Positions 1-20,900 of a DNA stretch of 36,184 nucleotides are shown in pieces (position 1 is the stretch's first letter; the number at the start of each line of letters is the position of its first letter). The notes under the pieces are model-generated. The model did no database searches. It was not told the DNA's origin and saw nothing but the letters and a program-made list of their open reading frames with translations. This DNA comes from a virus. A program made the position numbers and the translations under genes. The stretch covers positions 1-36,184 of IMG/VR virus record IMGVR_UViG_3300017735_000037, one strand, 5' to 3'.

Positions 1-538
1 CATTATAAAATGCTTGAAAGAAATAATGCTTGATGCCATGTACAGTAAAAAAGTTTTGTAGTTGTGTTACTTGTTGCACATACCTATTTGTATATTCTTC
101 TTCGTTCCACAAATACATTCTGTAGTTGTCAAAGAAAGCCTGCATACCGCGTTGATGGTATTCATGATTAGTTTGGTTAGGCCATATAGTTGTCCAGCCA
201 TGATTGTTTTCAACTGGATCTCTATAATAAAAATCTTTACGCTCTGGACTTGTGAAGCCAACAACAACAAACAAATCACTTGTATCTTTTTTATCATGCA
301 AGTAATGTTCTGTAATCCAACTAATAGTATGTCGTACAATACGATCGTTACTACTTGCTGGATATGAAATGTTACTGTGATCGTTGCAACCTAGTTTGTC
401 TGCTAACAGGGTTGGCCATATACGAGGAATACGATAAGCATTGTTTTCTGGATCCCAGTCGCTTACACTTTGTGGTAACTCTGGATCTCTTACTTCGCTA
501 CCAAATGTCCAACTATCGCCTGCAGTTAGTAAATGCAT
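1..538 (-). CDS. SGNH/GDSL-hydrolase-like protein (3' end beyond window)
   Basis: An open frame of 179 codons runs leftward from the ATG at 538 to the window edge without a stop. It begins MHLLTAGDSWTFGSE. The GDSW motif near residue 8 matches the nucleophile block of SGNH/GDSL hydrolases. Later blocks YPASSNDRI and VVVGFTSPER sit where this family carries its conserved Asn and a core strand. The family includes esterases and acyl or acetyl hydrolases, several of which act on glycans. The terminal Asp-x-x-His block would lie outside the window, so catalysis cannot be confirmed. The start overlaps the stop of the upstream transferase (TGATG), so the two are translationally linked. A shorter overlapping minus-strand frame at 67-339 has an unnatural composition and is rejected in favour of this one. 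Placed after glycosyltransferases, it could deacylate or modify a sugar; that is inference. Confidence 0.75.
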   Translation of the reverse strand, partial: MHLLTAGDSWTFGSEVRDPELPQSVSDWDPENNAYRIPRIWPTLLADKLGCNDHSNISYPASSNDRIVRHTISWITEHYLHDKKDTSDLFVVVGFTSPERKDFYYRDPVENNHGWTTIWPNQTNHEYHQRGMQAFFDNYRMYLWNEEEYTNRYVQQVTQLQNFFTVHGIKHYFFQAFYN

Positions 539-1278
539 CAGTATGCCTTTTTAATTTCTTGAAAGTCTGTAACTGGGTCGAGATGCTCAACACTAGTACG
601 CCATAATGTTTCTTGTAACTGCGGTTGTGTTTGTTGCATTCTAATATTACGTTTTTCTGTTTGTTGATATATTAGTGTGCCAGGACTTAGCATACTATCA
701 GCAGGATCTAACATGTTGCCTTGCATAAGTTGTAAGTAACGTGGAAAGCATTTCCAATTATAATATCTATATGTATCACAAGCAATATCCATTGTACTAC
801 TATCGCTCCAAAATATAATATCACTAAGTCCGTGTTTGCCTACATCAGTGTGTACAAGTCCTCTGTTGCCTAAACTATAGTATAAAGTTCTTGGCTCAAT
901 TTTTAGTTGTGGCCACTTTCTATCAGGTGGCATTAACATATCGTATCTTGTTTTGATTACACAATCGTAATCAAAGTTATGTTCTAATTCATAATTACGT
1001 TTTAATCTATTAGCCGCTTGTATACTATAAAGCATATTGCCAAACGGCCCTGCATGGTTAATGCTAGGTTCCATCTTTGCAATTACTAAATCGTGCTCAC
1101 TATTTTTTACAATAGCATTAAGGTGAGCTTCTTCAAGATCACTGTGTTCGTGGTCTCCTGTTTTGTTCCAAGTGTGACAAAACACATCTGCTTGTATGCC
1201 ATTAAAAAATTCTAGTATCAATGGCATAGCAACATTATATGTTCTTAACTCTCCGCTAAAACAAATTGCAGTTCTCAT
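538..1278 (-). CDS. Putative glycosyltransferase, FSG-LR family, copy 2
   Basis: 246 residues. The N-terminus MRTAICFSGELRT is a hydrophobic strand followed by an SGxLR loop, typical of a class of short sugar-transferase-like proteins found in bacteria and large viruses. An HTW motif follows near residue 35, and CVIKTRYDMLM near 106-116 sits where GT-A enzymes carry their metal/nucleotide-sugar Asp motif. The protein is a clear paralogue of the product of 1417-2154: both have AICFSG-LR, HTW, an aligned I-x-R[YW]D block and a later DI-[FY]W segment. No signal peptide or membrane segment is seen, so it should act in the host cytoplasm. Its ATG overlaps the stop of a 51-residue gene by ATGA. Transferase activity is inferred; donor and acceptor are unknown. 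Confidence 0.6.
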   Translation of the reverse strand: MRTAICFSGELRTYNVAMPLILEFFNGIQADVFCHTWNKTGDHEHSDLEEAHLNAIVKNSEHDLVIAKMEPSINHAGPFGNMLYSIQAANRLKRNYELEHNFDYDCVIKTRYDMLMPPDRKWPQLKIEPRTLYYSLGNRGLVHTDVGKHGLSDIIFWSDSSTMDIACDTYRYYNWKCFPRYLQLMQGNMLDPADSMLSPGTLIYQQTEKRNIRMQQTQPQLQETLWRTSVEHLDPVTDFQEIKKAY

Positions 1279-1430
1279 TGATTACCTCCTATTGTTCCGG
1301 CTAGTCTACGTTCCAGGTATTCAATTACATTTGGAAGTATAGGATCGTTTGTTTCTTCGTGTAATTCTTTTACTGCTTCTAGTTCTTCTTCAAGTAACTG
1401 CTTAACAGTTAATAGTTCATAAGGTTTCAT
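1275..1430 (-). CDS. Small hypothetical protein, 51 residues
   Basis: A complete short frame starts at ATG 1430 and ends with TGA at 1275-1277. The product begins MKPYELLTVKQLLEEELEAV and is rich in Glu and Leu. A predicted amphipathic helix or short coiled coil covers residues 5-30, followed by a second helical stretch ending NVIEYLERRLAG. Its start lies 14 bases inside the upstream transferase gene and its stop overlaps the next start by ATGA. It therefore fills the gap between two paralogous transferases exactly, which is strong positional evidence that it is real. Function is unknown. A partner or regulator of the transferases is possible but unsupported. It is too short for common ORF cut-offs and is likely to be missed. 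Confidence 0.75.
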   Translation of the reverse strand: MKPYELLTVKQLLEEELEAVKELHEETNDPILPNVIEYLERRLAGTIGGNQ

Positions 1431-2154
1431 AATCGCCACTTCCTACTACATGTTCTGGTTTTGGTCTTACAAGTTTAACAGGAGGATAAATTTGTTCTAA
1501 GTTTAAGTTGCATTCTTTTAAGTAATAAGCAAACACATGTTCCGGTCCATAATGTAAGTCACTGTTCATATTAAAATATTCTTTTGGGTGTCTTGCAAAG
1601 TGTCTATAGAAGTCACACATAATATCAAAGTCAGCACTAGTGCCTTGCCAGTAAATATCTCCAACCCTCATTCTATGTCCGTCATTGTCAAAACCTAAAT
1701 GTATAACTTGAGCAGTACCATCTGTTGGTGCTGGTACAGTCCAATCCTCGTCAAACATTGTGTCCCATCTTAATCTAATACACAGATCAAATTCACTGCC
1801 ATTGGTAATTTCATGCACACGTTTCATGTTTGCACTGTGCATGACTCCATAGAACTGACTCTGATAATTAACGTCATGTAGTGCTTGATCCAATCCAGGA
1901 GTAAACTCTACTTGCTCGTCAATCTTAAGTTCTAATCCAGGTAGCTCACGTCTTAGTTCTTGAAACTCATTGTTGTCAATAGTTTCAATATCGTGTTCGC
2001 CTGTTGTTACTTTAATAAAGTTTGGAGCACTTCGTGTTGTCCATGTGTGTCCAAAATAATATACTTCATGTTGTCTAAATGTTTGCTTCCAACTATCAAG
2101 ACATTTCTTCCAACTGCCTCGTAGTTGCCCACTAAAACAAATTGCTATCTTCAT
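1417..2154 (-). CDS. Putative glycosyltransferase, FSG-LR family, copy 1
   Basis: 245 residues from the ATG at 2154. A longer frame opens at 2190, but the 2154 start gives MKIAICFSGQLRGSW, matching the paralogue at 538-1278, and forms the ATGA overlap with the upstream stop at 2151-2153. That start is therefore preferred. Visible blocks are AICFSGQLR (residues 4-12), GHTW (35-38), FDLCIRLRWDTMF (122-134) with a GT-A-like Asp, and GDIYWQG. No membrane segment is visible. The pair probably arose by duplication and then diverged strongly, because only motif blocks still align. The likely role is transfer of a sugar onto phage or host glycan; this is inferred from fold-like motifs and neighbours. 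Confidence 0.6.
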   Translation of the reverse strand: MKIAICFSGQLRGSWKKCLDSWKQTFRQHEVYYFGHTWTTRSAPNFIKVTTGEHDIETIDNNEFQELRRELPGLELKIDEQVEFTPGLDQALHDVNYQSQFYGVMHSANMKRVHEITNGSEFDLCIRLRWDTMFDEDWTVPAPTDGTAQVIHLGFDNDGHRMRVGDIYWQGTSADFDIMCDFYRHFARHPKEYFNMNSDLHYGPEHVFAYYLKECNLNLEQIYPPVKLVRPKPEHVVGSGDYETL

Positions 2155-2594
2155 GTGCCTATCCTCATTATGTTGTGTTTGCTTACCCAATCACTACATA
2201 TACCATAACAGTTTTCTGGTACAGTATCATCTTTGTTGATTAAACAAATAACACTTATGCTTGTAACTTCTTTGTTAGGGTATGTCCAAATAAATCCATC
2301 ACTGGTTAATGTTCTTTCATCGCCTTCATGCCAGAAGCAACGTATACCGTGCTCTAACATATATGCTAATGCGTTTAAGTTTTTAGCATGATTCCAAAAC
2401 GCTGGGTTGCTAATAAATTCTTTTGAAACCAAATAGTCTGGGCCATCATGCCCTAACCAGATGTCGCCATCTAATACCCATACGTCAACTTCACAATCAT
2501 ATCCTTTGTCTACTGCACTCAGTAAGTACTCTGGATTGTTTTCACTGCTAGGTCTTGGACCGTTTACATTGCCTCTGTGTGCTATAAGTTTCAT
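2151..2594 (-). CDS. Short glycerophosphodiester phosphodiesterase-like protein
   Basis: 147 residues beginning MKLIAHRGN. The GP-PDE (GDPD) signature is intact: HRG at 6-8, E35 and D37 in CEVDVWV, and H49 in LGHD. In the family these are the metal ligands and the catalytic histidines. Typical GDPD domains form a TIM barrel of roughly 230-250 residues, so this version is short and covers only the first half plus a divergent tail (FIWTYPNK, then SVICLINKDD). It could hydrolyse glycerophosphodiesters or a related sugar phosphodiester, or be a degenerate binding protein. It is cytoplasmic, with no signal peptide. It overlaps both neighbours by four bases. Family assignment is confident; activity is uncertain because of the reduced barrel. 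Confidence 0.8.
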   Translation of the reverse strand: MKLIAHRGNVNGPRPSSENNPEYLLSAVDKGYDCEVDVWVLDGDIWLGHDGPDYLVSKEFISNPAFWNHAKNLNALAYMLEHGIRCFWHEGDERTLTSDGFIWTYPNKEVTSISVICLINKDDTVPENCYGICSDWVSKHNIMRIGT

Positions 2595-2860
2595 AGTGCT
2601 CCGTGTACCAAACTAAAGAATACTGCGTCAGTTTCTTTTTGAAAATTAATTACTGCACCTGTGTCGTTAAATGTCCAACCCCATTTGCCATCACAGTTTT
2701 CAATCATCCAACTTACAGTAGTTCCATTAACATTATCTTGTCTAGTTTGTATTTTATTTTTATACTGATTATTATATCCATAACCTGTTCTTGTAAGGTA
2801 TGAACTCATTACCATATCTAAAGATGGTTGCACATATGATGCTTCACTTAGTGTTTTCAT
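2591..2860 (-). CDS. Hypothetical protein, 89 residues
   Basis: Begins MKTLSEASYVQPSLDMVM and ends FFSLVHGAL. It is not recognised. The central part is polar and aromatic (GYGYNNQYKN), followed by VSWMIENCDGKWGWTFND, suggesting a small beta-rich fold. No membrane segment or signal peptide is visible. Both ends overlap neighbouring genes by ATGA junctions: its start overlaps the upstream GT-A-like gene and its stop overlaps the GP-PDE-like start. It is thus locked into the accessory operon. A plus-strand frame at 2603-2803 covers the same bases but has no sensible context. Confidence 0.65.
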   Translation of the reverse strand: MKTLSEASYVQPSLDMVMSSYLTRTGYGYNNQYKNKIQTRQDNVNGTTVSWMIENCDGKWGWTFNDTGAVINFQKETDAVFFSLVHGAL

Positions 2861-3795
2861 TTTTTCTTTTTATCTGCTTCTTGTTCTGTAATCATTATAC
2901 CAAAACGCTTAGGGTTTTGATATACGCTTTTAAACCAATGACTTGCACCAGCATCTAAATTTGCAACTCTAAAGTGTAATTCATTTTGCAATCTATCTCC
3001 AAAACTTTTTATAGCATTAAGTCTTTTAGTTTTGTGTTTGTATTCTTTTAGTTTATCTTTTACAAACGGTTGCATAAAATCATAGTCAGCAATTTGTGTA
3101 TGATCCCATTCATCTAAATTAGTTAGGCAAACGGCTTCTCTTGCTCCAAGTACTGCCCAGTCGCCATTCTCAATATCAAGTCCAACACTACACCACACAC
3201 TTAATCGTTGTAAGTTCTTTACATGATTCTGTTCTAAAAATTTCTGCTTAGGAGGTAACACTCCTCTGTCTAAACTCATCTTAACACCTTCACGAAAGCC
3301 TGCTCTATATGCCTGCTCGGGTGTAGCAGTAACAACAACATCACTCCATGTGTCTGCCATTTGAAAGTATGTAAACATCCAACAAAAGTCAACACTATGA
3401 GCACCATCTTCACTAACATCATTTTCGTGACTGTTCATGTTTTCAATAATGTGTTTAGGCCAAAGTTTAAGTCCACCGTTGCCATATGCTAAACTATTAA
3501 TAACATTATGTCCACACCAACTGAACACAAAGTCTCCTTGTGTTTCTTCATCAATCTCAATAGTTTGTTTAAAGAAGTCTGCGTGTACTACATTGTCTCC
3601 GTCTACTGTAACTAGTCTATGTGTTTCACTAATTTCACCTGCCTTATTATGAGCTGCATCAAATCCTTTAACACCTTGTACACGCTTTGCCCAAGGACAT
3701 TTACTTAACAAGTCTGCCCAATTCTTTTCTGCATTAGGTTCATCGTAACTAATATAAACTATATCAAAGTCGCTAATATTATAAATCTGTTTCAT
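2857..3795 (-). CDS. GT-A-like glycosyltransferase
   Basis: 312 residues. The N-terminus runs FDIVYISYDEPNAEKNW, then GVKGFDAAHNKAG, then THRLVTVDGDN. The order (first strand, a contact loop, then a strand ending in Asp-Gly-Asp at 65-67) is that of GT-A nucleotide-sugar transferases with a DxD metal motif. A cytoplasmic location is expected. Its start lies 17 bases inside the upstream gene, and its stop overlaps the next start by ATGA. The C-terminus is basic and ends KKKK. Donor and acceptor are unknown. Class-level assignment is moderately secure from the DxD context; a non-enzymatic role is not excluded. Confidence 0.65.
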   Translation of the reverse strand: MKQIYNISDFDIVYISYDEPNAEKNWADLLSKCPWAKRVQGVKGFDAAHNKAGEISETHRLVTVDGDNVVHADFFKQTIEIDEETQGDFVFSWCGHNVINSLAYGNGGLKLWPKHIIENMNSHENDVSEDGAHSVDFCWMFTYFQMADTWSDVVVTATPEQAYRAGFREGVKMSLDRGVLPPKQKFLEQNHVKNLQRLSVWCSVGLDIENGDWAVLGAREAVCLTNLDEWDHTQIADYDFMQPFVKDKLKEYKHKTKRLNAIKSFGDRLQNELHFRVANLDAGASHWFKSVYQNPKRFGIMITEQEADKKKK

Positions 3796-4351
3796 TGTCT
3801 ACTTCTCTATACGAAGCAAATGCTTCAATGTTTGTGTCTGTTATTAACTGACAACTGTTACTGTTGTTAAACGTAGGAACATCAATAAATGTTTCTTGTT
3901 GTGCTTGTAACTCTACAGTTAGTAATGGAATCATATAGTTGGCTCTAGGTACAAGCCATACTGTTCTCTTTGTAGGTAATTGTGTTCTTACGTTTACATA
4001 AAGTTGTCTTGTACTTTTTATAAATGTAAGTTTTGCTATGCTTGTATCAAGCCATTCAGTTAACTGTGATAAGTTCTTATTCTTTTCAACTTGGTTAGAT
4101 GCAATGTCAACAACTGTATTATTTTCAACATCAACAACATAGTTGCCAACTGTATTATTACTTAGCTCGTCAAAAATATCACGAGTTACAACAATATGTT
4201 CTGCATCATCATCTTTGCGTTCTAGTTTTCCAAAGCCAAGTATTTTATTCATTTCATTATATGAAACATAAAACATTTGTTCTGCTGGTGCTTGAGTCTG
4301 AGCACCAAATATGTCAGCCATAATTTTATCTAAGTCAACGTCTTCAGACAC
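3779..4351 (-). CDS. Hypothetical protein, 190 residues, GTG start
   Basis: The product begins MSEDVDLDKIMADIFGAQ. The first codon is GTG at 4351, preceded by AAAGG seven bases upstream, a good ribosome site lying inside the end of the previous gene. The frame overlaps that gene by 8 bases and the next by 17. The protein is acidic. It shows an N-terminal helical stretch, a hydrophilic middle and a C-terminal beta-rich half (TKRTVWLVPRANYMIPLLTV). No catalytic motif is recognised. It sits between transferase genes and may be structural or accessory; no function is proposed. Confidence 0.65.
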   Translation of the reverse strand: MSEDVDLDKIMADIFGAQTQAPAEQMFYVSYNEMNKILGFGKLERKDDDAEHIVVTRDIFDELSNNTVGNYVVDVENNTVVDIASNQVEKNKNLSQLTEWLDTSIAKLTFIKSTRQLYVNVRTQLPTKRTVWLVPRANYMIPLLTVELQAQQETFIDVPTFNNSNSCQLITDTNIEAFASYREVDNETDL

Positions 4352-5210
4352 CTGCTTGCCTTTCTAAACTAGATATTAATTCATCAGTACACCATTCTTT
4401 AACAACATAGTGAACTGGTTTAGTTTGTAAATAATTATTAATATATAAATCACCCGTATCACTAAATGCAGTATCTAAGTAATCTGTAAAGTTACTATCT
4501 GTAACTTGCCAATCAAGTAATCCTTGACACTTACTTTTTAAATGTATAAACCCAAAGTTACTTGGAGGACGAACATAGTCGTCCCAGTTAAGTGTTTTAA
4601 CTGCCATGCCATATACTTCATCAGTGTATGCAACTTCATTTGTTTTGTGTCTCATAAACTCGTGTGCATACTTTTCCCAATGATGATATATGTCTTCAAC
4701 TTGTAAATAAAACTCTTGTGCTTTGTGACTTTTACGAAAGTAAGTTAATGCACTATAGGCATTGTAAAAATTGTTTTGTATAAATGCTTTGCGATAGTAA
4801 CTGTCGTCTGCTATTGTATTTCGAAATGTATAAACAGTATTTGTAATTGCAACAGGAAAGTTTCTAGCACCTACTACGTCCCACATATGATTTACATCTG
4901 TAGTAAACAACATGTCAGCGTCCAGTTTAATAGTTTCATCATACGGAGTCATATGATATACTTTCCATTCGTTCTGAAGTTTCCAGTTATGCATAACTGC
5001 TTCATCAGTCCATGGAATAATTTCTACATTGAATACATCTAAGTAATGTTTAGGAAGACGTTCTCTATCTTCTTCAGTCATGCCTACAGTTAAATCAGTT
5101 GGGCCTTTTGTTTGACTTGCTTTAAGACTTAGTGCTAGTGCGTAAGCCATGCGTGGATAGTCACCAAACTTTTCACTGTATTGTGCAAACGTAAAGTAAC
5201 CTTTACTCAT
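4344..5210 (-). CDS. GT8-like glycosyltransferase, copy 2
   Basis: 288 residues. It opens with YFTFAQYSEKFGDYPRMAYA, resembling the first strand and helix of family-8-type transferases. The catalytic DxD is in ETIKLDADMLF (Asp 97-99), where it would hold the metal and nucleotide-sugar. A later aromatic region (YVRPPSNFGFIHLKSK) may bind acceptor. It is a diverged relative of the product of 5207-6040, with the same strand-DxD layout at nearly the same position. No membrane segment is visible. The ATG overlaps the upstream stop by ATGA. The substrate is unknown; modification of a phage-encoded or host surface glycan is inferred from context. Confidence 0.75.
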   Translation of the reverse strand: MSKGYFTFAQYSEKFGDYPRMAYALALSLKASQTKGPTDLTVGMTEEDRERLPKHYLDVFNVEIIPWTDEAVMHNWKLQNEWKVYHMTPYDETIKLDADMLFTTDVNHMWDVVGARNFPVAITNTVYTFRNTIADDSYYRKAFIQNNFYNAYSALTYFRKSHKAQEFYLQVEDIYHHWEKYAHEFMRHKTNEVAYTDEVYGMAVKTLNWDDYVRPPSNFGFIHLKSKCQGLLDWQVTDSNFTDYLDTAFSDTGDLYINNYLQTKPVHYVVKEWCTDELISSLERQAGV

Positions 5211-6040
5211 GAGTACAACTCCATAAAGCGATCATAATGTTTTTCAATTTCAACTTTGTTTACCAAGTGTACATTTGTATCTCTTAGTAATACAGGATAG
5301 TCATCAGTTTGTAATACTATCTTGCCATAGTCAACTTGCAGTATCTGTTCAGGAGGATAACTGTTAATTTGTCTGACTGGCAAAGGCTTCATGTATCCAT
5401 CTTCAAAGCCTCCAAGTATGTGACTTGCTATTGCGGCAGTAACATCATTGCGATAGTAATGATAAGGAGAACGAAAAGTCTTTTTATAAAAAGCATGATT
5501 CTCTTTTACAAACTTTGCAAACTCAAACCATTGTTCAGCCTCTTTACATTTTTTAAAATACATTACTGTAAACCAATGTACTCTTGGAAAGCCATCAGCA
5601 ACAACATTTTCAGTAACATGCAGTTGCGGCTTTGCAGGAAGTCTAGTACTAGTATTCATAAGCATAGGATTATTATTTCCCCACACTTCACCTAGTACAC
5701 TATTTTGTATAATGTAATCAGTATCTAATAATAGTGTTTCATCAAATGGAGAAAGATCGTAAGCCATTAATCGATCAATGTTATGCCATTGAATCTTCTT
5801 AGGTTTACCATCTATATAAAAAGGGCGTATGTTTGCTTCTGCTGTAGACTTGTAGTCAACTATATGATCAAAAATACTAACGTCGTCAGTTAGTTCATCT
5901 TTGTTTGTGATTAGTGCTACCGGAACATTTAAGTAATGCTTTGCCAATGTTGCACATACTACTGCTTGTTTAACGTAATTAAAGTCTAAGTTATTATTTG
6001 CAAAAAGCAGAACACCTTTAGTTCTGTTCTGTGAAGTCAT
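5207..6040 (-). CDS. GT8-like glycosyltransferase, copy 1
   Basis: 277 residues. KGVLLFANNNLDFNYVKQAV is a typical first strand and helix. VPVALITNKDEL follows. The motif block ETLLLDTDYII gives DTD at 106-108, the metal/sugar-nucleotide motif. VHWFTVMYFKK and NDVTAAIASHILGG resemble the acceptor-side blocks of family 8-like enzymes. It should be cytoplasmic. The start overlaps the preceding small gene by 23 bases, and no better internal start is visible. It heads the block of sugar-active genes that follows the fibre genes, so it should be expressed late, by read-through from the structural genes or from an unrecognised promoter. Confidence 0.75.
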   Translation of the reverse strand: MTSQNRTKGVLLFANNNLDFNYVKQAVVCATLAKHYLNVPVALITNKDELTDDVSIFDHIVDYKSTAEANIRPFYIDGKPKKIQWHNIDRLMAYDLSPFDETLLLDTDYIIQNSVLGEVWGNNNPMLMNTSTRLPAKPQLHVTENVVADGFPRVHWFTVMYFKKCKEAEQWFEFAKFVKENHAFYKKTFRSPYHYYRNDVTAAIASHILGGFEDGYMKPLPVRQINSYPPEQILQVDYGKIVLQTDDYPVLLRDTNVHLVNKVEIEKHYDRFMELYS

Positions 6041-6380
6041 AATCTATTAATTCTTTGACCGTTCTTGCTTTGCGAATTCTGTTTACTTCTGCTAATGCTT
6101 GATTCATTTCTTGTGCAAACTTTTCCATGCACGTTGCTTTGAATTCTTTTACATTATCAATTTGTGAAGGTATGCCGTTCATGTCTGAGATTACTGCGGA
6201 GTCGTAACCAGAACGTTCTAGTAGATCTAAAAAAGATAAAAGCTCACTATCGATCTGATATAGTCCGCCAAGATGACCGATTGTGAGCTTTTCATTTATT
6301 AACTCTTTTAGTAGAGTAAGTTGATTTCTTTGAACAGTATTGTATTTCGATTGATCGAAGACTGCTTCTATTTTATTCAT
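6018..6380 (-). CDS. Hypothetical helical protein, 120 residues
   Basis: Begins MNKIEAVFDQSKYNTVQ. The sequence suggests an all-helical protein: NQLTLLKELINEKL, SELLSFLDLLERS and FAQEMNQALAEVNRIRKAR are amphipathic stretches and the last could be a coiled coil. No known domain is recognised. It is the first gene after the fibre block, 93 bases from it, and overlaps the following GT8-like gene. Small helical proteins just after fibre genes are sometimes fibre-assembly chaperones in T4-like phages, which is a possibility here and nothing more. A GGGAAAA sequence precedes the ATG; no late-promoter box was seen in the short upstream gap. Confidence 0.65.
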   Translation of the reverse strand: MNKIEAVFDQSKYNTVQRNQLTLLKELINEKLTIGHLGGLYQIDSELLSFLDLLERSGYDSAVISDMNGIPSQIDNVKEFKATCMEKFAQEMNQALAEVNRIRKARTVKELIDYDFTEQN

Positions 6381-6405: not shown

Positions 6406-6435
6406 ATAGTAAGGACAAACTAATGCCCTTACTAT
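6406..6435 (-). terminator. Hairpin, possible rho-independent terminator
   Basis: Nine-base arms ATAGTAAGG (6427-6435 on the minus strand reads its partner) pair across a 12-base loop: 6406-6414 with 6427-6435. On the minus strand the hairpin lies about 39 bases after the stop of the structural gene 6474-7385 and is followed by an A/T-rich tract (AATTTATTTTATT). The tail is not a clean run of T, so termination may be partial. The rest of the 93-base gap shows no gene. Confidence 0.5.
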
Positions 6436-6473: not shown

Positions 6474-7385
6474 TTATAGGCCTTCGCTACTTGTAACTGT
6501 TGGTGTTGCAATAGTATAAGTAGATGACTTTCTGAATCCAACTTCGATAGTTGAGCCTGCTGACACTTCGTCAACTGTACTTGGTGCTACCGGTGTGTGG
6601 GAGTCAGTTAATGTTGTATTAAAGTACACTCTATGATTTGTTGTATCTAGTTTTGCATTGATAACAATATCGTTACCTGCATACTGACCATCACCAATGT
6701 TTGTACCTGTGAAAAGTGCGGCATATGAAGTTGTTAAACCAGAATATGTAGCACTACCACTAATTGTTCCACCTGAGCCACTTCTTGTTAGTGTACTTAG
6801 GCCCATTTTAATTGTGCCAATTTTAGTTGTAAAAATACTTCTCCAGTTATTATCCTGGTCTGTTGAACCGTTTGGATGTGTAAAGGAAATGTGTATTTCT
6901 CCACCTGTGTTAAAGAATGCATCAGCAGCCACTTGCGAAGCAAACTGAACGTACCATTCTGCGTTGATTGTGTCACTCCAAACTGCACTTCTTGTGTCAA
7001 CTGTAGAAGCTGCAACAGTAGTTTGTTCTCCTGTGTCCACGTTATTTTTATTTGCGTTGATAGCCGTTACCGCTGCACCCAAGTCATATGTAGTTGAGCC
7101 TGCAGTTGAACCATCTAATGCCTCAATAGTATCACCTGTACTCAATGCTGCCGCGGGCAAGTCAATTGATGTACCTTGGTGAGTTGCGGCTAGTTTTACC
7201 GCTGCAATTAAACTTGCCCAACTACTTGCGTTAACTGTACCGGATGCACTGACACTTGACAAAGACGTCTGGCCGTAGCCTGATGTACTTTGGTATGATG
7301 CAGAGTTTCCGATGACTGTATTAACAGTACCGATAAAGGTATTGTAGTCTGTTGCAAGTATAGTATTACCTGAACTGTATGTCAT
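6474..7385 (-). CDS. Virion structural protein, probable fibre or decorating protein
   Basis: 303 residues. MTYSSGNTILATDYNTFIGTV at the N-terminus is a start seen in several phage tail-associated proteins: a short helical head followed by Ser/Thr/Gly/Ala-rich beta sequence. Cys and long charged segments are absent, as in extended fibre proteins. The C-terminal half (from about residue 140, VWSDTINAEWYVQFASQV) looks like a compact beta-sandwich with aromatic residues and may be the exposed domain. AGGGGA six bases before the ATG is a strong ribosome site. It is the last structural gene before a hairpin and the accessory block. A late-promoter-like box lies about 75 bases upstream inside the previous gene. 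Exact function is not identified; receptor binding is an inference. Confidence 0.7.
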   Translation of the reverse strand: MTYSSGNTILATDYNTFIGTVNTVIGNSASYQSTSGYGQTSLSSVSASGTVNASSWASLIAAVKLAATHQGTSIDLPAAALSTGDTIEALDGSTAGSTTYDLGAAVTAINANKNNVDTGEQTTVAASTVDTRSAVWSDTINAEWYVQFASQVAADAFFNTGGEIHISFTHPNGSTDQDNNWRSIFTTKIGTIKMGLSTLTRSGSGGTISGSATYSGLTTSYAALFTGTNIGDGQYAGNDIVINAKLDTTNHRVYFNTTLTDSHTPVAPSTVDEVSAGSTIEVGFRKSSTYTIATPTVTSSEGL

Positions 7386-7414: not shown

Positions 7415-8893
7415 TTAGTTTATTTTTACAAAGGCTTCGATGGATCCTTCGCCTTCAGTGTATTTATTTTCAAGAGCTCTTCCAATAACATTAAAGGCCG
7501 TAATTTCATCACTCTTGGCTGCTCTAGCAATACCGTTCCCGGCACTTATTAGTCGCTCACCTTTGTTGACTTTTCCTGTTACTAAAACTGGAATACGTCC
7601 TGCCATTGCTACTGGTGGATGTGTTTCATCTGCACCTGCACCTGCATTCATTAAGTATGCTGGTCTAGTACTGATTACTCCAAAAACACTCTCACTGCCT
7701 TCTTCGGCCACTCTGGTTATCTCTTCTGCTCCTCCTAGTGCTACCACTGTTCCAGGAGCGTATGCGGTATCAGCCGCAAATCTTTCTGCCAAGTCAGCAT
7801 ATTGAGCTTCACTGGCTGTACCACTAAATGTGGCTGCATGTATAGTTGCATATCTTTTAGTAGTACTTCCAAAATCTCTAGTGTTGTCTACATCAGGTTC
7901 AATTACACCTTGAATAGTATTTCCACCAGTATTTAAAAGAACACCAGCACCACCGCCACCACTTAATGCATCATCAACATAACTCTTTGTTGCTGCCCCT
8001 AATGCACTTGTTGGTTTTGCGTTTAGTAATAGTTCGCTTGTTGCACCATCGATTGTCATAACCGTTGTTGAAACACCACCGTCATTAATACGGAAAAGCA
8101 TGTCACCATCACTAGTCTGGTTTTTCATAATTACGTTGTCACCAACTACTTCAACTGCGAAGTCATTATCAGCACCTACTGTTAATCCACCATCATTTGC
8201 AATTCGCATACTGGTGTTAACAACTGGAGCACTATCTCCACGTAAATAATTGGCTGCCGCTACTCCCCCAAGTTTATCTGAATCATCAGCAGTTCCATGA
8301 AACTTAGCAGCCGCTAAACTACTGTTTAACGTATATCCTTGTTTGATTGTAGTAAAGCCAGTTATACCACTTTGTGGTGTAAAGTCTGCGTCTTTACTAA
8401 TAATAGCAACGATAGTATCACTGTTCATCATTTGTACTACTACATGATTTGCTGAGGTACTATCTGTAATGGTTGCAATAACAGGTCCACTTTGTCCAGC
8501 ACCAGAACTAAATGCAGGACCTACTAGTGTCCATGAAGATCCGTTGTAAACTTTAAGTTGGTTGTTACTTGTGTCCCACCATAAGTCACCAACAACACCT
8601 GTTGCCGGCTGTGATGCACTTGCAGTAGAAGAACTAACAGTTTTAAAAGTACTACCTGTGTAAACTTTTAATAACGCATTGCTAGAATCCCACCATAGTT
8701 GGCCAGCCAGTGGTGATGTTGGAGCAGTTGAGTTTGAAAAGTTTTCAAGCAGTGCAACATAATTTTCATTAAATGCTTCACCGTAGCCTGAATAGTTCTT
8801 TCCAATTAGTGTTAAGTCTGTGGTTGTATCAATAGTACCATCGGCAATAGTTGCCAGTACCGCACCACTTGTTTTGTTAATTGTATAGGCCAT
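7415..8893 (-). CDS. Tail fibre-like protein with LWWD repeats and shared C-terminal domain
   Basis: 492 residues. The N-terminal part (MAYTINKTSGAVLATIADGT) probably anchors to the virion. Two tandem copies of an LWWD module follow (W67-D69 and W105-D107, each with a KVY-G motif after it), then a beta-rich shaft with the fibre motif ATKSYVDD near residue 305, then a glycine run. From residue 364, QYADLAERF to the end is a 129-residue domain also found at the C-terminus of the product of 9604-11865, including GVISTRPAYLMN and a V-V-GKVNKGE block. GGAG lies ten bases before the ATG, with a late-promoter box 25 bases upstream. Likely role: fibre or fibre-associated component contacting the host. 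Exact T4 counterpart is unclear. Confidence 0.75.
   Translation of the reverse strand: MAYTINKTSGAVLATIADGTIDTTTDLTLIGKNYSGYGEAFNENYVALLENFSNSTAPTSPLAGQLWWDSSNALLKVYTGSTFKTVSSSTASASQPATGVVGDLWWDTSNNQLKVYNGSSWTLVGPAFSSGAGQSGPVIATITDSTSANHVVVQMMNSDTIVAIISKDADFTPQSGITGFTTIKQGYTLNSSLAAAKFHGTADDSDKLGGVAAANYLRGDSAPVVNTSMRIANDGGLTVGADNDFAVEVVGDNVIMKNQTSDGDMLFRINDGGVSTTVMTIDGATSELLLNAKPTSALGAATKSYVDDALSGGGGAGVLLNTGGNTIQGVIEPDVDNTRDFGSTTKRYATIHAATFSGTASEAQYADLAERFAADTAYAPGTVVALGGAEEITRVAEEGSESVFGVISTRPAYLMNAGAGADETHPPVAMAGRIPVLVTGKVNKGERLISAGNGIARAAKSDEITAFNVIGRALENKYTEGEGSIEAFVKIN
7461..7468 (-). promoter_or_regulatory. Candidate late-promoter box inside a gene
   Basis: The minus strand reads AATAAATACA, matching boxes upstream of 8893 and 36056. 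It lies near the 3' end of 7415-8893, about 75 bases before the ATG at 7385. The distance is longer than at the other sites (25-39), so it is weaker. Confidence 0.35.
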
Positions 8894-8948: not shown

Positions 8949-9602
8949 TTAGCTCACTGAGCTTAGGTTAGTTAACGTCTGGATTCTAACTGTATAATCA
9001 ATTTGAATCAATCTGTTTAAACTTTTTTGTACTGGGTGGAACACCACGTGGGTTAACAGTTTACCTGTTCCTACTGTTCCGTTCCAGCTCTTTAATCCTA
9101 GCTCGTCAAACACATAAGTATCATCAAAGTTACTAGCATTATCGAATGCCGCTTGTCCACTTGGCTCACCATAGTCAAGTAAACAGCTAACAATAATATC
9201 TGTATAAACAAGACTTGTAGTATGGCTAACTGTAATCTTGTTTCTTACTGGATCGTTATTCAAACTACTTGTATCATCTACAACTTTATAGTAAGTTGGG
9301 TTATACAAATCTGCACTTTGTCCAGTGCTGTTTGCTGGCAAGTATGTTATAACTCCTGTAGGGTCAACACTTGTACCACCGTTCCCAAAATGCATTTCGT
9401 GAACGTATCCTGTTGTTTTATTAGCCAAACTGTTTGCTAATGCTTCACTCATATTTTCATAATGAATTGCATTGCGTTTGTTTACAAACACTTCGCCTGA
9501 TTCAGGGTCAAAGATCTTAATGTGACCTTGTACTTGTACCCCACTTTTCTCGTCTGGCTTTTTTATCATTTCATTTTTCTCTTTTTTAGTATTGTTTTCC
9601 AT
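8949..9602 (-). CDS. Virion structural protein, 217 residues
   Basis: The first 20 residues are charged (MENNTKKEKNEMIKKPDEKS), followed by VQVQGHIKIFDPESGEVFVNKRNAI, a beta hairpin seen in phage tail or baseplate proteins. The remainder is beta-rich, with HFGNGGTSVDPTGVITY and VVFHPVQKSLNRLIQIDYTV. No membrane segment is visible. It starts one base after the stop of the fibre gene 9604-11865 (TAATATG) and lies between two fibre-like genes. Its size and placement suggest a fibre connector or baseplate peripheral protein. It is not assigned to a numbered T4 protein. No strong ribosome site is visible, so coupling to the upstream stop is likely. Confidence 0.7.
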   Translation of the reverse strand: MENNTKKEKNEMIKKPDEKSGVQVQGHIKIFDPESGEVFVNKRNAIHYENMSEALANSLANKTTGYVHEMHFGNGGTSVDPTGVITYLPANSTGQSADLYNPTYYKVVDDTSSLNNDPVRNKITVSHTTSLVYTDIIVSCLLDYGEPSGQAAFDNASNFDDTYVFDELGLKSWNGTVGTGKLLTHVVFHPVQKSLNRLIQIDYTVRIQTLTNLSSVS

Positions 9603-11904: not shown

Positions 11905-11912
11905 TATTTATT
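11905..11912 (-). promoter_or_regulatory. Late promoter box (AATAAATA)
   Basis: The minus strand reads GAATAAATAAAC, overlapping the TAA stop of the giant gene and 39 bases before the ATG at 11865. It matches NATAAATA but lacks the following C found at other sites. Confidence 0.5.
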
Positions 11913-14900
11913 CATTAATTTGAACGTAATTATCATTCACATAGTCTGCATTTAAATATCTTCCGTTCTGATTATATGCAATGTTAACAATAGGTATTGT
12001 ACCAGCATATTCAGTTAAGAACTTTGCTTGTTGTGTTGTGTGATACTGTAAACTATCAGTTGTACTAGTCATATTATACCAAACATTATCATATGGATTT
12101 GGTATTTCCTGTCTTAGACTTGAATCAACTACTAGGTCACCTACATAGTGTCTAAATGCAATAGCAGTTCCCATTGTACCTCTACGTAGGTTACTAAGCA
12201 CATTACCATCTTTCTTCCAGTAAGTAATACGCTCATTACCGATAAAGACTACTCCAGGAATGTTACCTGCTAAGTCTGGATCTGCTAATCTAGTGCCATC
12301 ATCTACTGTAATTTCACTATCAGATCTGTTTAATGCTACTGCTATTTTTGTTGTAGCATCTTCGATCATTCTAGTAAATCGTGTTACGCCAAGTACGTCT
12401 TTCCACATTCTCCAGGCAATTTGCTTTTTAATTGTTTTATCGCTGAACTGATTGACAACAATAATATCATTAGTTGTAATTGCCTTTTTAATTACTAAGT
12501 CACCAGCACTGCTAACTTCGTAGTCTGTGCTAACACTTAATTTAATTCCGTTTAGTGTAACCCAAATATAATTAACATCTGTTATTGTTCTGTACAAGTC
12601 AAATAGCGGACTGTTAATAACTGCTATACTATCGCTATCAAAATTTGATGCGTCATAACTGTCACCGTCATATCCTATTGTAATGGTTACTTCACTTGCT
12701 GTCAACCCCTTAAATGTCTGTGCAGTAATTTCCAATGTATCGTGGTTACTAAATGTAGTTGTATTAAGTTTAGTACCATTAGTAACCGGTAAACTACTGT
12801 CTAATGTAAGTTGATTTCCAACTACTGTATATTCAGCATTTGTATTATCGCCTATTGCAATTTTTGAACCACTTGTTGGAGCACTGTTAAATGTAACTGT
12901 TCTTGGATCAGTTCCAACTTGTGCATCTAATGTCCAGTCTGTGTTAGCCGCTCCATTAACATATATGCTAATGTCTGAAGCAGTAATAGTTGCATGATCA
13001 ATGTCTGCGTTATCTGTTAGTTCAAAAGTAGTTGTAGTTCCATCACCTGTAAAGTAACTGTAAACTGCAGGACGTAATCTATTTTCGTTTAGTTCAACAA
13101 ATAGTTTTGCATCAGTCGGACCATCATAAAATGGCTGATTATCCATTGTAAATGTTCTTAACGAACCGTTCATTACAAATGTATCTTGAGCAACATGACT
13201 GTATGCAATCTCAACACTCTCATCTAAGTTAAACACAAATACATGTATATGTGCTCCAAGTGGCGGTGCCGTATTAAAAGTTAATACTCCACGCTCACTC
13301 TCATCAGCAATGGTATGATTTGTTTTAACACCATTAACTAATACTAAAGATTGTTTTGCTAAGTCTTGTTTAACAGGAAGTGTAATTTTTGTATCTGTTC
13401 CGTTGCTTATGTACACAACATCAAGTACCATATTTTGTCCAGTTGTACCAATGTTTATAATATCAATTATATCATTGTTACTAGGAGCAGTATTAAACAC
13501 AACTTCAAAAGTTGAATAGTCTAATGTAAACTCATCTGGCTGTACCTTACCCTGTTGTGCAGTGTAAATCATAATGTTGTCACCATATAGATTATCTAAT
13601 GGCATAAAACTAAATCTAACATCAGTACCGTTTGCTCTATGCTTAACAACATCAATCTTTGGACTTAGTGCAGTTCCACTTTCAAGTGAACTAGGTGTTT
13701 GATATATTTCCATATCTAAACTGTCAAACACTCTACCCGGAATAAACTCTTCCGGTGAATGTGAATTGTATTCATCAACAAACTTGCCGCCAATGATATC
13801 AATGTCTTCTGGTCTTGTTCCAAGTAAACTATCACCAAATCTATTTTCAAGTACTTGTGCTACTGTTAAACCTTCTGTTAGTATAGTTTGGTTTTCTGTG
13901 TATCCAGACTCAACATAATCAAAGTCTACAAATGCACCTGCCTCTAGTTCAGCACCAGTAATAGCAATATTACTTGCAGTAATATTTGTATCAGCAACAC
14001 CTGAAATCATTTTAATACCTTCAGGGCCTACTTCAAAGTTATCAAAAGGTACTGAGTCAAACCCGCCTCTTGCATAGCCAGGTTCTTGATCAAATGTTGG
14101 TCCAATTATTTTATTACGTGGATATTCAATTCCATAGAATAAATTTTCTAATTGTTTTGCTGGTTGTGTACTTGTTGGTTGATAGTATGCAATGGATCTA
14201 TCCATTGCGTTTGTAAATGTTTCATCAGCAATAACTGTCAAGTTGTCACTTGTAAATGTTACTCCACTAGTAAAGTCTATATTGGCAGTATATGCTTCGC
14301 CTAAGTGTGTAATCTTATCTCCTGCGTTATATGAAGTTTCTCCTGCCCACTCCTTAACTTCGGAAGTATACTTTATTCTATCAAACTTTAAAGTACTCTC
14401 AAATGTTCTTATTTGTTCATTACTGAGTCTTGCATATGCTTGTGCAGTTGTTCCTGCACTATCACTAAATGTAACTGTTGGTGTTGAAGTATATCCAGTG
14501 CCTGGATTTGTTACTGTAACACTAGTTACAACACCTGTATCAATAACTGCTGTTGCAGTAGCACCAGTTCCACCACCACCACTAATTGTAATTACTGGAG
14601 GAACAGTATATGAAGTTCCTGCATTTTCAATTACTAATTCTTTTACAATAAATGTTTTGTTTGCATTGTATGGACTGTTTATACCTGCTTGTAGTCTTGC
14701 AAGGTCATCTGCACTATTTGTATTTGGCTTTCTGTAAAGTCCAAGATTAGTATCATAATAACTTGCAACATCAAAGTCTGTAACATCACCATCCCACGGC
14801 TCAGTATTATCGTAGTTTAATACATACTCACGTATCTTTGTATGATAAGGTTTTGCTTCGCTAATAAAATCATTAACGTAACTTTGATTATCTCTTCTGT

Positions 14901-17900
14901 AATATGGTAAGGCATCAAGTGCTCTAATGTTATGATTAACACTTACAAAACTTGTTTTAAATAACCAGTCTACATAAGGTTGCTCATCAAGTATATAATA
15001 TATTATTGCCATAATTAAATTGTTGTACTTAATTTTTAAGTCTTCAACAAGTATATGGTTTAGTACACACTCGATAATTTTTCTAGTTTCAACTTGTGGC
15101 TCTTGATCAAATAACTGGAAGTCAAATACTTCACTATCAAAACCGTAACGGTTCTTTGTATAGTCGTATAAACTTGTTCCTAGTTGTAATGTACCATTTG
15201 CAATACCAACTGTTGTGTACTCTTCACCGTTATAATATAACAGTTCCCATGCACCACCATTATCAACTTTAACAACTTCGCCACTAACTACTCCAGTTAA
15301 GTTAACTAAGTCTTTCTTTAAGTCTACTAAATGATTTATATATGTTGTTGCACTATATCCTGTTGCATACCAGTCTGTATAATTCCACTGATTCTTAACA
15401 TCATAACTTTGTAACTTTACAAGTGTCCATGTATTATTTTCTAGTTTAGAATATATACTCCACAAGTTTTGTACATTGTCGTCGTTTGCTACAAGAACTC
15501 TCCAACCAGTTGGGCGTTCTCTAAGTCTTACAAATCCTAGTTGTTCTTGATTTTCAACACGTTGGTTCCACTCGCCACTGTTTACTGTTGGCTCATTGTC
15601 TTCTTCAAGTAATCCACTAATGTCTCTACTAATTGCAATAGGGTTTGCAAGTAATATAGGATTAACAACATCGACAAATGTTTTTAATGCTGTGAATCTA
15701 TTAACAAACATACTCTGTCTTGGACGGAATTGTACGCCGTGTTGTTGTGTAATATTTAAATTAGTATCTGGTACTTGATTACCTTTTGTATCAGCACCAA
15801 CTAAACTATCTACAAGTTTACGTTCTATGTTAGTAGGTAATGATTGTTCTGCATAACCTTCTTTAATAATACTCCACTCAGTGTGTAACACTTGATCGTT
15901 TTTCTTAACGTCAAAGTCAACTGCAAGAATAGTATCATTGTCAATAATATCACTGTTTATATTGTAGTTAACAATATCACTTGCACTTGCAAATGCCACA
16001 TACTTAATTCCGTATGTTGTAGGATCTACAATAATTTGTGCAACGTTGTATGGACTTACTGTATGATTTTCAGTAATGTCTCTAAGTCCTCTAACCCAGA
16101 AGTAATACTTTGTTGTAGCACTTTGGTTAGTATAAGTTGTATTTGTAACAAATAAATTTTCGTTGTAAACTACACCATCACCGGAGTATGCACTTGGCAC
16201 TACGTTACTTTCAACCCAACTATAAACATCAATAGTACTTCCAGGAAATACTGTACCCCAGAATGTGCTACGGTATGCCCAGTCGCCTTGTTCTGCATAG
16301 TTGTATTTTACAGTTGCAAGATCCCACCAAATTTTACCAACTTGCTTTGAACTCCAAGTACTTGCACCTTCGGCGGCATATACTGCTGGATCCCATAATG
16401 TTTTGTAATCAATATTTTCATCTGCTAGTCCTGGTATCTTTCCTTTAATAGGATCAATCCAGTCATAGTAATTAATAATTTTATTTGTTACTTTGTTGTA
16501 ACTGAACACTCTGTTAATACGTTTTGGGTCAACTAATTTTGACTCTTGCTCACTAAGTTCAAACACACTGCCGTTAAGTTTATATTCAAACACACGACCT
16601 GAGTTAGTATAAGTGTTATCATCATATGGAGTTCCAACAAAAATTGTTGTTCCTACTACTGCAAGATCAGAACCAAATTCATCATTATCTTCAACAGTTG
16701 TATTTGCTAACTTTTGTGTTTGTATGTAACTATCGTTTATTGCTTGATACACATAAACATTACCGCCACGTTTTCTTCTGTCAACAAATTCAGTTGCTTT
16801 ACTATCAATAGTTAATTCGTTACTATCAAATGTACATGCTGAATCAAAAATACTAGTTGGTGCGGCAATACTTAATACACTTCCATCACTGTTAACTGCA
16901 ATGGACTTACCAAATTGTTGTAAGTCTGTTTGTGCATCTTGTGTAATATTATGAACTAGTGACCAGTCATTGTTTGCATACTTGTGTACACTTACTAGTC
17001 CACTTTCACTTTCAAATCTATCTAAACCTGGACTACCAGCAAATACTTTTAAACCGTCATGTGTTATTGCAACATCTGTACCGTAAAAGGAATATTCGCC
17101 TGTTACTGATGCAGTTAATGTTTTTTGTAATGTCCAACCAGTTCGTCCACTGTCTGTTGTAGTTGCACTATCGTCTGTTGTTAATAATTCACTGTCCGCA
17201 GTTTTAAAGTCTACTGTTGCATCAGCAGTATAAATGTAAACTGCACCACGTTGTGTTCCTGCACCGTCTTCCTTAGGTGCACCAACAACAAATGTATCAC
17301 CTGTTGTAGTTGTATCAATACTTGAACCAAAGTCTGAACCACCATTACCGGTAACTACTTTTCTTTGGATTATGTTTAATCCTGTGTTTACTTTTACAAT
17401 ACTTGATAATGGCGGAGTAACAGTAAATGTCATTAACCCATTTACAAGCGTATAGTCTACACCTTCAATTTGAACTACGTCTTCTAGTGTAACATTTCTA
17501 CCAGCAAACATTGGTACAAGTGAAGTAACTTTATTAGAACCGTCTGTAACTATTGTATCTTCAACTTGACTAATTTCAGTAACACCTACTGCTTGTTCAA
17601 TGTCTAAAATATAAACTGAAACATTACCCGGTGAACCAACAAACAGACGCTTACCGTTCTTACTAAACTTTACACTTTCTCCTAAGCGAGTAGCACTTGT
17701 ATCACTCCATGCAAGTCTTAATTCGTAATCGCCTGTAGTTTTGTTTAACTTGTAAACAAATACTGCACCTTGTCCTGAGTTTGTTCCTGGTGCTCCAACA
17801 ACAACTGTTTCTTCAAATACATCTACACTATGTCCAAACTCTCTAACTGTTACATTAGTTGGAACAAGATTTGTACTTTCACTTAACTTACCTTCAACGT

Positions 17901-20900
17901 TTGGTGTATACACTACTGCTGAACCGTAAGTTGAAACAGTTGGCATACCAAACGCAGCCAAGCTCTCATCACTGTTTACTGCAATGCTATGTCCAAAGCG
18001 TCCATCTGCAAAACTGTAAATGCCAGGAGTGAATGTATAGTTGTTTACATATTCTTTTGTTTTTTCAAATACTGCCCACTTGTCATTGTAATCATCAATG
18101 AATACTTTGTCATTTAATTTCCAGCCACGTGTCGGATTAAAAGAACTAAGTGTAAGTTCATCTGCAAAACGTATACTGGTAAATTTCATTACTACTGCTT
18201 CACCAGTTACATCAAGTCCTTCAACTTTCTCATCTGTTTCAAAACTTTTTAAGCCAGTTGATCTTAGTATTCTATGTACGCCACTACCTTCTCCAAAACC
18301 TTTGATAACAATAAAGTCATCTGGCTGAAGTGTATGTTGTTCGTCTGTTGTCCATAGTATTGTATCGTTGTTACTTGCTTGTGCAGTTGTTACAACTACC
18401 TTTGTTACATCTAAGTAATACATGTTCCAGTCAAGTGTAAGATCATTAGCAACGTATAAAACGTAACCAGTATCCATACTAGCAAGACTTGAATCTAAGT
18501 TTTGATAAGAAGTAATATTAAACAGTGTAGCGTCAGCATCAGTTAATTTTGCATAACCGGCATACGGCAATGCATCACTAATAATTCCATAATCGTCACT
18601 TAGCGGTATCCACTTGTCAGTTATTGTAGGAGGTGCTTCGTAAAATTTATTTACAAGTAAGTTGTTGACACCTTCTTCTTTTTGTTCTATACTAGGAATA
18701 GTATGAATTACTGAAGGATTACCTTTTGTATCATTTTCTTTAAGTTGTATTTCAACTCTGTTGTTTACATCAGTACCGCCATACTCACCACTGCGTATTG
18801 CCCATTCTTCAAACATATTGATATCTGAAGTTGTGTTATCTAACTTAGCACGGAGTAGTTTGTCAATTGAATTCTTAGTACCCTTCTCACGTATCATACC
18901 TTGATAAAACTTTATCTGTGATGTATCGTTAAGTCCTAAGTTTTCTAAGTAACTTCTTGATTGATAACCAATAACACTCTTACCAAATCTGTCAGCATCA
19001 CTTTCTAAGTTGGATTCATCTAAATCATAAAATGATTCAAAGTTTCCACCTAGTGTGTCCCAGTTAGGTAATAAGCCTAATTTAAAACTATCTGTTGGTG
19101 CCCATTGATTGTAATCAAATGCACTACCACTTGTGTGTTTTTGTACTGCGGTATATAACTTATCATTATATTTTACAATAGCACCTTTAGAGTAATCTGT
19201 ATTTTGTATAAACGGATCTACAGTTCCACGATTTAAAATAAATCCTTGTGCAGTTAAACTTCCGTCCCATCCTTGTGTTCTCCAACCTACTAAACGTAAT
19301 CTGTTTTGTCTGTTGCCTAGTTCTGGTTGATATACAATATCATTAAAGACTGTTGTATTATTTAAAACTAACACATGCTCGTATTGTACTACTTTAAGAT
19401 CTGCGTAATAAATTCCTCCGGCATCTGGTGCTGGCTCTAATTCAAAACTGCCGTCTTCTCTTTTTGTTTTATAACTATCTATTGTTAAACTATCAAAGTT
19501 TTGATTTAGTACTGACTTGCTACTTCCTAAGTCAGTAACAAGACTGTCAATCATTCCATCTTCACGATTGAACTGTAAAAAGTTAGCACTAGGACTTATA
19601 CTAATTACTGCACCTACGCCCCAGTTCTGCTTATTCCAATAAGCAAACTCTTTACCACTCATTGCCCAGTTGGCAGTAGTTGTTCCGTTGGCTACTTCTT
19701 CTGTACTGTTATCAAAGTCGTAACCTATTAGCGTTAAGTAACGTCCGTAACTAATTAAGAAATCAAATACTTGTTGCGGATTACTTAGCTCAGTACCATA
19801 TGCAACCTGTTGTGTAAAGTCCTGTGAATCTTTATATTCATAATAACGATCATCTAAAACTGTGTGTGTTTGTACGTTGTTACTTTGTATACTAGGTATA
19901 ACTGTAAAGAAAGGATTAGTATGATCGTAACCATATAACAAGTAACCTGTATCACTTCTTTGTACAATTACTCCACTGTAAGGTGCGTTTATGATAGGTC
20001 CTGTTTTTTGTACATGCAAACTATAGTCTTCATCAGGTATAATAACATTTTCACTAACTGCGTTAGGACTTACTTGCTCAGCAAGTACTTTTAAGAATTT
20101 TTTATCTGTGTAACTGCTTAACTTACATGCTAAATTAATATCCAACTTGTCAACAATATCTTCGAGTATAGTTGTTGATAGTCCTAAAAACTGCATGTAG
20201 TTTCCAACTAATGTTGAATAACCATTTACAATATTACTATCTACAAACGGAATTTTAAAGTCAGCTCTTTGTAATTGTTTGTTAGTATTGATATTAACAA
20301 TATTATTTGTTAGTGTACTTCTACTAATAACATCTGTATCGTATGTCAATCCGAAATACTTTGCAGGCTTCATTAAGCCCATTGCAATTTGACATATAAA
20401 TGGCCATTCACTACTTTTCATCCAGGCTGTCTGTGCAGGCCCAAAATCATTTAGTGTCCAGGAAGCATCATTGTCAAATACAGTTGAACCTTTGGCAAGT
20501 GTTTTCCACGGTGAACGTAATGTTCCGTGTTCATCTACAGGAATCATACTTAGCAAATCAGGACGAGCATAATTTGTGTTTATTGTGTGCGTGTCACTAA
20601 TTCCGTCACTGTAAATCTTACCATCACGTAAGTCTTCCCACAATACTAAGTTTCCACTTGCATACGGAGCCGGACCATAACGTTGTGTCCACCAACTAGG
20701 CATTTCACTATAGCCTAACATCTCCCACGGATGTGTGTCTGGTCGATCAGTATCAAAGTAAAAGTTGTAAATGCCTCTCCAGAAACCAGGAAGCAGTTCA
20801 TCAGTTATTTTGTCATTTAATTTATTATAGTTCCAACTAAATTCATTACCAGTGGAATACTCTTGATTGGTTGTCCAGTCAACTCTATTTTGTATTGCCC

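Follow-up and report, generated by a model that had tools for sequence, protein, structure and literature searches.

A putative tail-linked glycosylation cassette in uncultured large T4-like phages

Genes and features of the tail locus

The window, that is, the whole stretch of DNA analyzed, is a virus record of 36,184 bases, and every gene of the block described here lies on its minus strand, as do g11, g12, g13 and the hairpin between g11 and g10. Its structural genes, encoding a gp6-like baseplate wedge, a gp5-like hub and fiber proteins, put it among the large T4-like phages, and the best matches of gp6 were jumbo phages Phosso, Atu_ph07 and the Serratia BF/Erwinia group (~35% identity). 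A 4168-aa protein is encoded at 11908-24414, after the gp6-like gene, in the position held by very large virion structural proteins in Phosso, Atu_ph07 and PA5oct.

The tail locus includes g13 (8949-9602), a conserved tail-locus protein of phrog_11259 that served as anchor for the locus comparison, the fiber-type structural protein g12 (7415-8893) and the Ser/Thr-rich virion-protein homolog g11 (6474-7385). From g11 the order of transcription is g10 (6018-6380, 120 aa, conserved), g9 (5207-6040), g8 (4344-5210), g7 (3779-4351, 190 aa, GTG start), g6 (2857-3795, 312 aa), g5 (2591-2860, 89 aa, with no assigned function and seen in the nearest relative only), g4 (2151-2594), g3 (1417-2154), a 51-aa ORF (1430-1275), g2 (538-1278) and g1 (2-538). 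From g10 onward neighboring genes overlap by 1-23 bases; the apparent gap of 138 bases between g3 and g2 (1278-1417) is occupied by the 51-aa ORF, which overlaps both neighbors, and the start of g3 was set at an ATG overlapping g4 in place of the listed TTG at 2190. The block is one overlapping operon at 2-6380 behind the fiber genes, beginning at g10 and leaving the window within the SGNH gene g1. A first-pass annotation of this DNA had likewise described a single overlapping operon after the fiber genes; the span that it gave, 538-6040, has ORFs at both coordinates but is too short, since the operon extends from g10 to g1.

A terminator-like hairpin (6406-6435, 12 pairs with a T-rich tail) and, alongside it, a promoter-like match (6465-6437) lie between g11 and g10, both being consensus matches whose frequency is similar in shuffled sequence and not above chance overall. 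The one exact match in the window to the T4-type late promoter, TATAAATA, is far from the block. The largest 19-residue Kyte-Doolittle mean among the block proteins was 1.48, and this lack of a strongly hydrophobic segment fits the expectation for cytosolic enzymes.

The tandem GT8-like pair

g9 and g8, first and second of a tandem, belong to a GT8-like family of 146 ORFs across 76 fetched loci. Searched against PDB sequences, the family profile matched glycogenin-1 and -2 (E 1.3e-6 to 5e-5) and nothing else up to E 10, and the match covers the first 113 positions with the DxD motif included; as single sequences g9 and g8 gave no significant match to a Pfam glycosyltransferase family. DxD was present in all first copies (38/38). 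Second copies have D or E at the first DxD position and keep Asp108 (35/35), g8 of the window reading LDAD. Asp108 and Asp199 do not vary among the GT8-like proteins, and His258 is found in 72/73. GT8 enzymes carry the C-terminal motif HxxGxxKPW. The family of g9 and g8 resembles the GT8 enzyme glycogenin in the profile match with its DxD motif; at the C-terminal end His258 is kept and Lys262 mostly so, with the spacing HxxxK in place of HxxGxxKPW.

g9 and g8 share 23% local identity (E 0.001) and form one family by HMM. In a tree of 73 GT8-like proteins the first copies (38) and the second copies (35) separated into two clades, both with full SH-aLRT support, and there was no swap of tandem position. 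Two such clean clades indicate a duplication older than every sampled relative, and a recent duplication of the pair was rejected on this tree. Against the nearest relative, dN/dS was 0.11 for g9, 0.09 for g8 and 0.05 for g6; on these ratios both GT8 copies are under purifying selection, and the low values of all three genes argue against current diversification of the core sugar specificity. The suggestion of the first-pass annotation that the GT8 pair reflects local duplication with changing sugar specificity is therefore not supported, given the ancient clades, the fixed order and the dN/dS of 0.09-0.11.

Further transferases and accessory proteins

The AF2 model of g6, which carries a VDGDN motif, has a GT-A fold (pLDDT 91). 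Its PDB matches were mostly GT-A transferases (TM 0.2-0.4, none under E 0.001), the PBCV-1 capsid-glycosylation enzyme among them; among viral models the top two matches were uncharacterized phage proteins, followed by phage glycosyltransferases. Asp65 and Asp67 are invariant in the g6 family, of which 5/29 members matched Glycos_transf_2 (best E 0.001). The model thus places g6 with the GT-A enzymes at the level of fold, not of GT2 membership. In some relatives g6 lies within a much longer ORF of 534-864 aa, possibly a fusion (L100:10001-12592, L117:408-2558, L098:9995-11596).

g2, of the FSG-LR family, was modeled with a GT-A fold (pLDDT 88), and its top PDB matches were GT6-type enzymes (E 2e-6, TM about 0.5). 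No Pfam glycosyltransferase family matched it, the best match being DUF7796 below the cut-off, so that g2 is taken as a fold relative of GT6 enzymes without sequence membership. g3 is its paralog (20% identity, E 9e-11). g2 is 49-68% identical to second-position copies elsewhere and about 25% to first-position copies, and because it is nearer to the former, the FSG pair appears older than the close relatives of the window. Both paralogous pairs noticed on first reading, g9/g8 and g2/g3, are therefore real, and its count of five transferase-like genes holds, with g9 and g8 recognized by profile, g6 and g2 by model and g3 as the paralog of g2. Pfam and PHROGs assigned the transferases no function. 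Single-sequence searches with g9, g8, g6, g2 and a distant g6 relative found no match among isolated phages; profiles were needed.

g1, truncated by the window edge, is SGNH/GDSL-like (DUF6071, E 1e-19; SGNH-esterase Est2A profile, E 2.5e-4). A GDS motif stands near the N-terminus in most of 14 aligned g1-type sequences, with GCS in some, and in relatives extending further g1 is the first of 3-5 SGNH paralogs in a row. An SGNH-like protein had been claimed before, and these matches agree with it, although the gene (2-538) falls outside the span then given. g4, assigned to phrog_34507, was called GP-PDE-like: its HRG, ExD and GHD motifs are present and H6, R7, E35-x-D37 and H49 are invariant in 7/7 sequences, but its length of 147 aa is about half that of the matched GP-PDE chain (255), and the match to a solved GP-PDE was not significant (best E 0.024 over 48 residues). 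The earlier GP-PDE call is therefore borne out at the motif level only. g7, which lies between the GT8 pair and g6, evolves fast, with ~32% identity in close relatives versus 64-83% for its neighbors, and short proteins occupy its place in other relatives; g10 and g7 are probably helpers.

Constant and variable genes in related loci

Comparison of gene content at this locus across related phages had been proposed with the first-pass annotation, and we carried it out on loci fetched with g13 and, separately, with g6. The GT8 pair was present in 23/23 distinct g13-fetched loci reaching 3.5 kb past g11, and g6 in 19/19 reaching 6 kb past g11; with the g6-fetched loci included, the counts were 44/44 for the GT8 pair and 38/38 for g6. 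The order of the GT8 copies was constant in all sampled relatives. While g9, g8 and g6 are constant, the FSG, GP-PDE-like and SGNH genes vary: the FSG pair and SGNH genes occur in the relatives of the window, and radical SAM genes stand behind g6 in others. Judged by gene content, the block is two-layered, with a core of g11, g10, the GT8 pair and g6 and an outer layer of the GP-PDE-like gene, the FSG pair and the SGNH genes. In many relatives the core is succeeded by stretches of radical SAM-type genes, downstream of g6 in L003, L008, L010 and L057 and at L140:14393-18053, and a 2OG-Fe(II) oxygenase gene lies between the GT8 pair and g6 in some relatives.

Orthologous genes at the g13 site were sought in the isolated jumbo phages Phosso, Atu_ph07, CBB and Munch with the GT8, g6, FSG, SGNH, g10, g11, g7 and g4 profiles; none of these matched near g13, and orthology in these four phages was rejected. 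In the tail loci of Phosso and Atu_ph07 we observed a ~300-aa protein (L131:18306-19226 and L132:19062-19952) with a shared terminal D[Y/F]CH[T/S]SCHASCH[S/N]SRSRR, next to several radical SAM genes. This arrangement resembles a peptide-type modification whose target protein is encoded amid the virion genes. A g13 search of genome contigs returned only a few MAG contigs, which do not count as evidence of a host.

g11 as the candidate acceptor

The profile of g11 matched PA5oct gp360 over positions 3-290 of 303 (E 3.9e-48). In PA5oct the gp360 gene closes the same run of tail genes, preceded by genes for a long tail fiber and a further virion protein. Its record carries the note ESI-MS/MS, which we take as detection in virions. 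No transferases are annotated at this place in PA5oct; as the g11 homolog is kept there without them, g11 does not need the transferases everywhere. Ser and Thr make up 30% of g11 in the window and 27% in the family median, the highest of the proteins compared, and 22% of the PA5oct homolog.

Co-divergence, measured as the correlation of pairwise divergence after removal of the cubic g13 trend, was 0.59-0.82 among g11, g10, g9, g8 and g6 (g11 with the others, 0.59-0.71). The adjoining g12 did not track them (0.07-0.16 with g10, g9, g8 and g6; 0.07-0.28 overall). Without the clade of the window the signal was weaker but retained (g11 0.44-0.57, g12 0.13-0.36). An exchange of the g11-g6 stretch as a single piece of DNA would produce such values as well; by themselves they support a unit and not an enzyme-substrate pair.

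We presume that the block most likely serves to decorate the virus's own tail with sugars. That a tail protein, probably g11, is glycosylated in the cytosol we rate at roughly one in two, with acceptor, sugar, timing and order of transfer inferred. In that case this large T4-like phage would have a protein-glycosylation cassette tied to its tail. The core enzymes, g9, g8 and g6, would act in the cytosol, late, during tail assembly, and would assemble a short glycan on a virion protein rich in Ser and Thr, g11 being the likeliest. The outer layer, consisting of the FSG pair, the GP-PDE-like protein and several SGNH proteins, and in relatives of sugar-nucleotide and sugar-decoration enzymes, would supply or trim sugars, and it differs between phages. 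The first-pass annotation had offered late modification either of virion proteins or of host surface sugars; the tie of a glycan block to the fiber genes is upheld, and the virion half of that alternative is favored.

Sugar genes behind the core and other possible roles

The window ends inside g1, and the sugar-nucleotide genes were seen in a relative only. The 306.7-kb record of the nearest large relative may be incomplete; in it the block runs on into a nucleotidyltransferase, a RuBisCO-like protein and a phosphomannomutase-like protein (called on the homolog in L089), and the same region holds two UDP-sugar dehydrogenases, a DegT aminotransferase, a carbamoyltransferase, a cytidylyltransferase and radical SAM-like genes. 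The RuBisCO-like protein (PF00016, E 4e-35) of this sugar-gene region lies at L085:18416-19552, which equals L140:1531-2667.

This extended block resembles a surface-sugar pathway, and while infection proceeds the enzymes might instead remodel the outer polysaccharide or LPS of the host, one possible purpose being to shut out other phages. A host-surface role has been proposed for glycosyltransferase clusters of jumbo cyanophages (PMC7824862), and the FSG family occurs in the cluster of Synechococcus phage SynMITS9220M01, annotated as polysaccharide synthesis. That proposal, however, was built on sporadic and variable clusters, whereas the core here is invariant across the sampled relatives; the block holds no membrane transferase or flippase, and within the tail locus the cassette comes immediately after the gene of a virion-protein homolog. 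We consider host remodeling the main rival, though a rather unlikely one. Another reading, improbable, is that the outer genes produce a small metabolite derived from carbohydrate, or modify some peptide, with the transferases as part of that pathway. Such a product would leave unexplained the constant place of the GT8 pair and g6 beside g11 in every relative while the other genes change. In favor of this reading, genes of the radical SAM, carbamoyltransferase and cupin types lie behind the block in relatives, and a secondary-metabolite role was proposed for a similar cyanophage cluster (PMC7824862).

No gene of the thymidylate synthase/dCMP hydroxymethylase family was found in the 306.7-kb relative, with the reservation that this record may be incomplete, and the transferases are encoded in the tail locus rather than with the replication genes. 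Glycosylation of phage DNA, for which phage glycosyltransferases are known and are discussed in PMC12619734, was judged very improbable on the absence of that gene family from this record and on the tail-locus position.

Returning to tail glycosylation, a broader picture can be put forward only tentatively and with considerable doubt: a clade of uncultured large T4-like phages may carry a fixed, vertically kept glycosylation cassette reserved for a single tail protein, g11, and lineage-specific sugar-making genes behind it, so that every virion would bear a tail glycan.

Comparison with known systems

In mycobacteriophages virions are reported to be glycosylated (Freeman et al. 2023, cited through PMC12619734), with glycans on capsid and tail-tube proteins; those phages are unrelated, and the target proposed here is a candidate. 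The g6 model resembles a Che8 glycosyltransferase (E 1.2e-3). Moraphages, which are aquatic, have four putative glycosyltransferase groups in their core genome and share with the window phage a large size, contractile-tail genes and conserved glycosyltransferases (PMC12619734); the passages on them give neither a placement of the transferases behind tail fibers nor an acceptor. A fixed GT8-GT8-GT2-like cassette linked to a named virion-protein homolog was not found in a search of the open-access literature.

In gene content there is also a likeness to cyanophage polysaccharide/LPS-type clusters such as that of SynMITS9220M01 (PMC7824862), which, like the block, combine paralogous glycosyltransferases with nucleotide-sugar genes and include the FSG family. 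The paper portrays those clusters as sporadic and as variable between related phages, whereas here neither the GT8 pair nor g6 varies, and these genes stand behind tail-fiber genes. Phage glycosyltransferase clusters are usually taken as variable accessories; the conserved order across sampled relatives, together with co-divergence with g11, points to a core virion function for this one and names g11 as a specific, testable acceptor.
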